A stretch of DNA of 64,000 bases. It comes from Neobacillus drentensis. Its GTDB lineage: Bacteria; Bacillota; Bacilli; Bacillales; Cytobacillaceae. The position numbers and the translations under genes were made by a program. This document shows, piece after piece, positions 1 through 51,460 of the stretch (positions are counted from its first letter, which is position 1; every line of letters starts with the position of its first letter). Below the pieces are notes generated by a model that saw only the letters and a list, made by a program, of their open reading frames with translations, searched no databases and was not told the DNA's origin. The stretch lies in NCBI RefSeq assembly GCF_021560175.1, contig NZ_CP091110.1:796001-860000 (forward strand). Reading direction: 5' to 3'.

Positions 1-156
1 TCTAAAGGACAGTTTGCCTAAGAGACATGATGGTTTTGTCCAATAGGAAGGTTCTAAAGGACAGTTTAACTAAGAGATCCGATGATTTTGTCTAATAGAA
101 AGGTTCTAAAGGACAGTTTAACAATGAGATCCGATAATTTTGTCCAATAGATAACC
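1..156. repeat. 52-bp tandem repeat, three copies
   Basis: Three head-to-tail copies begin at 1, 53 and 105, so the period is exactly 52 bp. Each copy starts TCTAAAGGACAGTTT and ends near TTTTGTCCAATAGGAAGGT. GGACA near the start and TGTCC near the end are inverted relative to each other (7-11 and 37-41 in copy 1), so a stem-loop is possible; copy 2 has TGTCT. A degenerate fourth unit (GGACA at 163, TTGTCCATTAG at 199) follows at slightly longer spacing. The array may begin outside the window. I see no gene in 1-302. Confidence 0.9.
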
Positions 157-302
157 TCGATCGGACAATTCCTATTACTAATTATACAGAGGGAAACATT
201 GTCCATTAGAAATAATCAATCCGAGCTAACCAAGCATAAAAACTACTCCCGTATCCAGCCATTTTGTTTTATAGTAAAAGGTAATGAAAGGAAGTGGACC
301 CA

Positions 303-19983: not shown

Positions 19984-20300
19984 GACAAAAAAATAGATTG
20001 GTGCCGGCACCAATCCAAAATGGGAAGTTTTAAGAAATGAGCTCCTTCGAACTTATTTCCTAATTAAGTTACTCTTATAATAGTGAAAAGTTGTGTAGAA
20101 AATAGGGGGAAGTTGTGTGGAAGTTATGAAGATTTTGTTTTGAAGACAAAAAAATAGACTGGTGGGTTCACCAATCAAATTATGGGAAGTTTTAAGAAAT
20201 GAGTTCATTGAACTATTTCCTAAATAAGTTACCTTAATCATAAGAAAAACATATGAAGAAGTTATGCAGAACTTATGTGGAAGTTGTGAAGTTTTTTCTT
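19984..20300. repeat. Tandem pair of 161-bp structured repeats
   Basis: Unit A (19984-20144) and unit B (20145 to about 20300) share GACAAAAAAATAGA, TGGGAAGTTTTAAGAAATGA and TTTCCTAA. Each holds two hairpins at the same places: ATTGGTGCCGGCACCAAT in A against TGGTG-GGTT-CACCA in B, and GAAATGAGCTC/GAACTTATTTC in A against GAAATGAGTTC/GAACTATTTC in B. Sequences differ but pairing is kept. Each unit ends in three AAGTTRTGNRG-like 11-mers. No gene lies in 19941-20519. It could be an RNA element, a small mobile repeat or a protein-binding array. Confidence 0.7.
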
Positions 20301-26336: not shown

Positions 26337-26344
26337 ATTCATTT

Positions 26345-26383
26345 CTCCTTAGTTTTTTTACGTGGGAGGTTCTCGAACCACGT
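26345..26383 (-). promoter_or_regulatory. preQ1-I riboswitch before queT
   Basis: On the minus strand the leader reads ACGTGGTTCGAG, AACCTCCCACGT, then AAAAAAACTAAGGAG. The GTGG/CCAC stem, the GGTTC and ACCTCCC elements and the A-rich ACTAAGG tail are the preQ1 class I consensus. The tail contains the Shine-Dalgarno AAGGAG, so ligand binding would hide it and block queT translation. Confidence 0.88.
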
Positions 26384-26538
26384 TAAATTAGAATACTTGC
26401 AAACTAATATATTATTATAAAAAAAAACATGAGTCAATGACATTATTTTGAAATAACGGGTGTAGTACTTTTTTCCAAAATAGTAAATAATACCACAGCT
26501 TACTGCGCATATTAAAAATAAAAAAGGAATGGCTATAG

Positions 26539-31905: not shown

Positions 31906-32217
31906 CATAACCTCTGAAGGACATGTCGCGAATGGATTTCGACAGATAAGAGAGGTTCATAACCCTTGAAGGACATGTCGCGAATGGATTTCGACAGATA
32001 AGAGAGGTTCATAACCCCTGAAGGACATGTCGCGAATGGATTTCGACGGATAAGAGAGGTTCATAACCCCTGAAGGACATGTCGCGAATGGATTTCGACG
32101 GATAAGAGAGGTTCATAACCCCTGAAGGACATGACACAACTGGATTTCAACAGATAAGAAGGGTTCATAACCCCCCTAAGAAATTAAACAAGTAAGTTTC
32201 GGCAGAAAACAGGGTTC
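31906..32217. repeat. 52-bp tandem repeat, five copies plus one degenerate
   Basis: Copies begin with CATAACC at 31906, 31958, 32010, 32062, 32114 and 32166, every 52 bp. The unit includes GAAGGACATGTCGCGAATGG, ATTTCGACRGATAAGAG and AGGTT. Within it TGTCG and CGACA are inverted (31924-31928 and 31940-31944 in copy 1). Copies 1-4 are nearly identical, copy 5 is diverged in the middle and copy 6 keeps little more than its ends. It fills the gap between the two GH1 genes. No promoter for the second GH1 gene was identified. Confidence 0.95.
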
Positions 32218-51310: not shown

Positions 51311-51414
51311 TATTGACTACCCTGAAGAATCATTTTGGGGGTAAACAGTCGTCAATAAGCGCTATTGACTACCCTGATGAATCATTCTTGGAATTAATTG
51401 TCTTCAATGCTCTT
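51311..51414. repeat. 52-bp tandem repeat, two copies
   Basis: Copies begin with TATTGACTACCCTGA at 51311 and 51363, exactly 52 bp apart. The first half (to ATCATT) is almost identical and the second half has diverged. In copy 1 TATTGAC (51311-51317) and GTCAATA (51351-51357) are inverted. It sits between the galactosidase and kinase genes in place of a terminator. Confidence 0.88.
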
Positions 51415-51460
51415 CCTGAATTAGAAAAAGCATTTGATGAATAATATCCGGAGGAATAAA

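Follow-up and report, generated by a model that had tools for sequence, protein, structure and literature searches.

A hidden inverted-repeat register in the 52-bp tandem arrays of Neobacillus drentensis

We found that most of the 52-bp tandem arrays of Neobacillus drentensis, whose sequences differ, share a hidden arrangement of inverted arms. Most arrays appear to be tandem repeats of a 27-bp dyad (a 10-bp arm, 7 free bases, and a second 10-bp arm) with 24 or 25 bp between dyads. The arrays are real and belong to a published, unexplained class of 52-nt repeats of constant length and variable sequence, found in ~30% of the Bacillus species studied, in which species-specific short signals often occur together with their reverse (Subirana and Messeguer, 2021; PMC8161180). 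Our literature search found no later explanation of this class. We propose, giving the idea about even chances, that the arrays are phased dimer sites for a putative sequence-specific DNA-binding protein.

We analysed a 64-kb stretch (the window), corresponding to positions 796001-860000 of a single 6.26-Mb contig. The first-pass annotation had described three arrays of period 52 in it, all between genes, two of them between carbohydrate genes. All three were recovered, arrays 1 and 2 with TRF and array 3 by identity at lag 52, and all have a period within the 51-53 bp of the published class. Each lies between ORFs of at least 100 aa and is thus non-coding. Array 1 (1..156, no strand assigned), of the TGTC class, consists of the final three copies of a longer array. 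Inside the window TRF reports period 52 and 2.9 copies; the entire array spans genome positions 795584-796150, with 10.9 copies and a start upstream of the window. Its three dyads, likewise without assigned strand, follow one another at 52 bp: TGTCCAATAG - GAAGGTT - CTAAAGGACA at 37..63, TGTCTAATAG - AAAGGTT - CTAAAGGACA at 89..115, and TGTCCAATAG - ATAACCT - CGATCGGACA at 141..167. The right portion of the third is decayed and falls outside the array end, position 156, that had been annotated. Searches of array 1 against plasmids and phages gave no matches at E 0.001.

Array 2 (31906..32217, plus strand) contains five copies and one additional decayed copy (TRF period 52, 5.2 copies, 94% matches) of class E, named for GACAGATAAG. 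Its first block, with the position read from the sequence, is GACAGATAAG - AGAGGTT - CATAACCCTT at 31941..31967 on the plus strand, and the block recurs every 52 bp, at 31993, 32045, 32097, and 32149. In a generic dyad scan the complementarity of its arms is weak, reaching 6/10 in another register. The stretches kept across related class E arrays are GACAGATAAG and CATAAC, and therefore the TGTCG/CGACA pair previously singled out in array 2 is probably not the main one. By eye, class E also contains TGTCGAA, the Spo0A box. The other classes do not share it, and we set Spo0A boxes aside as an account of the arrays. A GH1 gene flanks array 2 on both sides. Measured on a single GH1 protein, Bacillus sp. 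ISL-18 (97%) is among the nearest named relatives, as is Neobacillus cucumis (96%). At the orthologous site, ISL-18 has 7.1 copies (L141:9549-9920) compared to 5.2 here, and N. cucumis has one diverged unit, identified by eye (L144:9890-9975); copy number at this site thus varies among relatives.

Array 3 (51311..51414, no strand assigned) has two diverged copies. At lag 52, 38/52 bases are identical, while the runner-up lag in the range 20-199 gives 22/52. TRF omits this array even at score 30, which makes it the weakest case; arrays 1 and 2 reach four copies and array 3 only two. Its dyad, AGTCGTCAAT - AAGCGCT - ATTGACTACC (51347..51373, no strand assigned), is of the same class as the GGTAGTCAA(C/A)/ATTGACGACC arrays. 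A GH36 melibiase gene lies on one side and a PfkB kinase gene on the other. A startless open frame (51313-51444) runs across array 3 and ends in DYPDESFLELIVFNALPELEKAFDE and a stop, resembling the end of a protein; the remains of a gene may lie across part of array 3.

The claim that the three arrays are unrelated holds for their letters, which differ. It does not extend to their arrangement: arrays 1 and 3 are in a common hidden 10-7-10 register, and array 2 is similar to it. The short inverted arms that had been noted are all present, those of arrays 1 and 3 within the 27-bp dyad. Elsewhere in the window, a 160-bp repeat in two copies (19984-20296) carries a GGTGCCGGCACC palindrome and precedes an ORF that includes a coding repeat of 39 bp, and a PreQ1 riboswitch aptamer (26343-26387, minus strand; 55.4 bits) is the sole Rfam match in the window; no Rfam model matched at the arrays.

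To survey periods across the genome, we sampled 2.4 Mb (38%) as 120 stretches, each of 20 kb, and kept TRF arrays scoring 90 or more. The first-pass annotation had held that the common period would be coincidence if genome-wide periods were broadly spread and 52 were not over-represented. Among 75 sampled arrays, 36 had a period of 51-53, four a period of 102-104, and 35 another period; without array 1, which was brought in by one off-grid stretch, the 51-53 class comprised 35/74. The over-representation of 52 bp is real, and chance is excluded. In 31 of the 35 arrays with other periods, the period is a multiple of three. Consensus units and arm classes reveal that several repeat families, differing in sequence and alike in length, coexist in the genome, and the units of arrays 1 and 2 are found again at many sites.

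Two variants of the theme were also observed. At 184400, 215428, 5032957, and 5767478, compound units of 102-103 bp contain paired dyads with near-identical arms, while their loops and spacers alternate and are unrelated. At 1373946, 1949573, 4761516, and 5592020 there are period-21 arrays whose units share GCCGATAA or GGCGGATAA (on either strand), a stretch similar to the TGTCCGATAG half-site that 52-bp arrays carry. Direct repeats of this half-site, two turns apart, may underlie the published 20-21-nt class.

The dyad register emerged from a generic scan without TGTC as input. Arm pairs with at least 8/10 complementary positions were present in 32/49 consensus units compared to 38/980 shuffled units; the 17 units below this score include array 2. 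For 30 of the 32 high-scoring dyads the centre was 7 bases (10-7-10, 27 bp), followed by a spacer of 24 or 25 bp. Read in leading-strand orientation, TGTC-N19-GACA occurs in 25/50 arrays (129 dyads) and spans differing arms, such as TGTCCAATAG, TGTCCGAAGT, and TGTCCTCATG, and the return gap from GACA to the next TGTC is mostly 24 or 25. Within arrays, over 2.49 Mb scanned, the TGTC-GACA gap was 19 in 135 cases, 20 in six, 25 in seven, and 18 in one, making TGTC-N19-GACA nearly invariant in TGTC-type arrays. Outside arrays, each gap of 4-60 bases was seen 9-36 times, with 33 at 19. In intergenic DNA outside arrays a gap of 19 leads with 14 cases, and the second-highest gap has nine; by eye, seven or eight of the 14 fall within further degenerate arrays, at 1127403, 1421365, and 3316741.

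The same register is common to the GGTCAATGAA and GGTAGTCAAC classes. The arm letters of this genome fall into few classes, for example TGTCCAATAG, TGTCCGAAGT, TGTCCTCATG, GGTCAATGAA, GGTAGTCAAC, and GACAGATAAG. Mid-arm mismatches are frequent in A-type dyads, with A-A at position 6 in 39 and at position 7 in 34 of the 129 dyads; their symmetry is therefore imperfect.

If the arrays were neutral satellites, an ancestral 52-bp repeat would have been copied about the genome and expanded by slippage, and its length would be kept by common descent. The recurrence of the units of arrays 1 and 2 is in keeping with this, as are the copy numbers at the orthologous site of array 2 (5.2, 7.1, and, by eye, one). 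The distribution of variation argues against it. Across 22 arrays that had at least three units and an arm score of 8 or above, with the register set by complementarity and not by conservation, mean pairwise diversity within arrays was 0.072 for arms, 0.245 for loops, and 0.251 for spacers, so that arms are ~3.5 times less variable than loop or spacer. Arms were below spacers in 19/22 arrays (Wilcoxon p 9e-5) and below loops in 17/22, and a random-rotation null failed to give the arm contrast (p<=0.0005). Eleven arrays with low arm scores, for which the register is doubtful, showed a smaller difference, with arms below spacers in nine. In 14 arrays from other genomes, where arm diversity was taken only from positions 5-10, which were not used to find those arrays, the values were 0.09, 0.23, and 0.25; arms were below spacers in 13/14 and below loops in 12/14, and arms and spacer were reversed in one array (L296).

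Spacing is kept as well. Neighbouring dyads, considered in the range 27-160 bp, lie 51 bp apart in 42 cases, 52 in 81, 53 in one, 82 in one, 103 in four, and 104 in one. All 33 pairs of neighbouring spacers that are less than 55% identical belong to dyads at 51 or 52 bp, although many such pairs come from compound 102-104-bp units that were amplified whole, leaving about nine independent cases. In 10 of 22 dyad rows (nine arrays, since two rows belong to one array), neighbouring spacers are no more alike than spacers from different arrays, for which mean identity was 0.38 and the 95th percentile 0.56. The dyads from other genomes and those of the spacer baseline were linked only at 51-53 or 50-54 bp and do not constitute an independent test of spacing. 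Tandem duplication alone predicts no unrelated spacers of equal length. The earlier suggestion that a single mechanism amplified different seeds thus fails, on its own, to explain unrelated spacers at the same distance, and we regard neutral satellites as an unlikely account.

The other earlier suggestion, that geometry is under selection and an inverted pair is retained, fits what we observe: the N19 gap, the 51/52-bp dyad step, conserved arms, and free loop and spacer. The sequence freedom that went with it applies to loop and spacer and not to the arms, which are least variable, fall into few classes, and have a TGTC core that recurs family-wide.

To follow the arrays beyond this genome, we used the query TGTC-N19-GACA-N(24,25)-TGTC-N19-GACA, which has only 16 fixed bases. 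It matches 138/193 genomes of the family, compared to 2/193, with one match each, for a reversed-pattern control. N. drentensis has 163 matches and the maximum in another family genome is 623. No match was found in 55/193 family genomes, including all 13 listed of genus g20. One genome (G081) has none while its congeners reach 623, a natural contrast for a partner-protein search. Among 398 genomes sampled over the phylum, two match: N. drentensis itself and one family member. Only four of the 398 represent other families of the order, a thin sample for judging how far the class extends. The inner arms are complementary at 4.1/6 positions compared to 2.12 when right arms are exchanged among 30 loci (largest of 2000 exchanges, 3.20). 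Between genera, arm letters change while geometry and inner-arm complementarity are kept, which also counts against neutral satellites.

Arrays are not placed evenly. We counted gaps with arrays in one genome, where gene calls simply took the longest ORF and three of 50 arrays lacked a complete gap: 17/172 convergent gaps, 23/636 co-directional with the fork, 4/113 against the fork, and 3/227 divergent gaps contain arrays. They are scarce in divergent gaps (convergent versus divergent, Fisher p 1e-4). In 46/50 arrays purines are in excess on the leading strand, a bias that led us to consider SpoIIIE/KOPS-type polar octamers, and the mean purine fraction of spacers is 0.65, above one half in 26/28. 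For convergent gaps, the leading strand is purine-rich in 17/17 with arrays and 65/104 without (Fisher p 0.001). For the other contexts the sign was not significant compared to array-free gaps (with the fork, 20/23 versus 307/401; against it, 3/4 versus 40/83; divergent, 3/3 versus 127/183). Polarity was assessed in N. drentensis only, with the terminus set at 3.3 Mb because GC skew changes sign within the interval 3.15-3.44 Mb. Two arrays, 3192953 and 3295390, are near this assigned terminus.

Subirana and Messeguer discuss a role as small RNAs or as a sponge, in which transcribed arrays would fold into one hairpin every 52 nt. The 52-nt repeats of B. coagulans are reported to be transcribed (PMC8161180; also a second paper, PMC8625621), and for both strands tandem trimers of our units have a folding advantage over shuffled controls (mean z of -1.67 and -1.93, 40 rows). 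On the strand opposite the leading one, arm mismatches at positions 5-10 comprise 46 G-U and 26 A-C, a modest wobble excess. We set this asymmetry aside as a sign of RNA; it reverses with strand and is at most weak, and on the opposite strand. On the leading strand the mismatches are 46 A-C and 26 G-U, and 73 A-A would break the stem. Moreover, arm letters are kept and the loop varies as freely as the spacer, the reverse of what is expected of a loop-recognised RNA; the purine-rich strand tracks replication in convergent gaps too; and no Rfam family matches the arrays. Since arm letters are conserved and the loop is free, recognition of double-stranded half-sites is favoured over an RNA hairpin. 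A small RNA role, raised in the first-pass annotation, is accordingly disfavoured, and we consider it improbable.

The 10-7-10 arrangement is reminiscent of the half-sites that tyrosine recombinases use on either side of a free overlap, and the TGTC half-sites look like those of Tn3-type resolvases. The units could then be core sites for a site-specific recombinase, with recombination between units adding or removing copies of exact length, and the free 7-base centre between conserved inverted arms is as such sites would have it. The genomes speak against this. One with 445 pattern matches (G071) has only two Phage_integrase proteins, of housekeeping XerC/XerD size, and a single Resolvase domain of YneB size, whereas two array-free genomes (G165 and G175) carry 18 Resolvase matches each. 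No N19 dyad occurs at the loci of the four Resolvase matches of N. drentensis. In genomes hand-picked as array-rich or array-free, Resolvase (24 genomes), Phage_integrase (10), and Y1_Tnp (11) did not track array number, and no dedicated recombinase accompanying the arrays was found among the Resolvase and Phage_integrase sets. Housekeeping Xer or YneB-type proteins may be partners of the arrays; as a whole, recombination at core sites seems very unlikely.

Spread of REP/BIME-like palindromes by a stand-alone Y1 transposase (RAYT) is extremely unlikely: although the palindromes are intergenic and near gene ends and N. drentensis has two stand-alone Y1_Tnp genes, other hairpins flank these genes (by eye), an array-rich genome with 566 matches (G074) encodes just three Y1 proteins, each of 176 aa, and lacks any of 205-272 aa, array-free G081 has a 264-aa Y1 protein, and no cognate Y1 transposase flanked by array palindromes was found in the flanks of N. 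drentensis or in the 11 genomes. The two N. drentensis transposases (L220, genome 5671096-5674428; L221, 5529632-5532961) have hairpins of their own, of GGGGACGGTTCTCATGCTTC type and GGTGCCTGTCACC type, REP/RAYT-like pairs that are unrelated to 52-bp arrays.

As neither recombinases nor Y1 transposases track the arrays in the genomes compared, a host DNA-binding protein is the likeliest partner. In the proposal of phased dimer sites, each arm would be the half-site of one subunit, dimers would sit side by side on one helix face of each array, and the step of ~5 turns would put adjacent dimers in phase, allowing contact or polymerisation. The arm classes of one genome could stem from a set of related proteins or from a single protein with broad specificity. 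Ordinary unequal exchange would alter array length, while selection would hold arms and spacing. Several points weigh on the other side: presence and absence matched none of the three protein families tried; a single protein would not easily account for several arm classes in the same genome; 17/49 consensus units, array 2 among them, have low arm scores; the symmetry of A-type dyads is imperfect; of the 14 arrays elsewhere, two do not have arms below loops and one reverses arms and spacer; and 55/193 family genomes lack the TGTC pattern. The nucleoid-type binding protein suggested in the first-pass annotation comes close to this best reading. A candidate role, the one that would fit placement best, is chromosome organisation or insulation at gene ends with replication polarity. 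A more specific version, in which fast-evolving dimeric DNA-binding proteins polymerise in a five-turn register and mark the ends of genes with a polarity in line with replication, is tentative, and we doubt it more than we credit it. If true, it would amount to an unrecognised chromosome-organising or insulating system across an entire Bacillus family, with a half-site code rewritten in each genus and a fixed geometry. In practice, the published riddle of constant length with no conservation seen becomes a testable one, namely which protein binds the arms, and the dyad pattern serves as a search query that finds arrays across genera when their sequence is not known.

How do the arrays compare with known systems? 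Like CRISPR arrays, they combine a palindromic conserved part with a spacer of fixed length, but a given array mostly repeats its own spacers, and a single genome has many scattered arrays. With the core sites of recombinases (loxP, lambda core, Tn3 res) they have in common inverted half-sites and a short free centre; unlike them, they occur by the dozen at gene ends, and an array-rich genome is without a dedicated recombinase. REP/BIME elements with RAYT are also extragenic palindromes arrayed near gene ends. The 52-bp arrays differ from these in having no matching transposase and a fixed step, and other hairpins lie at the Y1 genes. The closest likeness is to the 52-nt class itself, with which they share the 51-53 bp period, several families per genome, partial conservation between strains, and a signal with its reverse in the repeat (PMC8161180). 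That paper requires at least four copies, more than array 3 has, and gives no sequence conservation or geometry; here we add the 10-7-10 register and arm constraint, together with the family-wide TGTC-N19-GACA spacing and leading-strand polarity. Compared to the main text of PMC8161180 and the accessible part of PMC8625621, the shared register is new, as are the constraint on the arms and the strand polarity.
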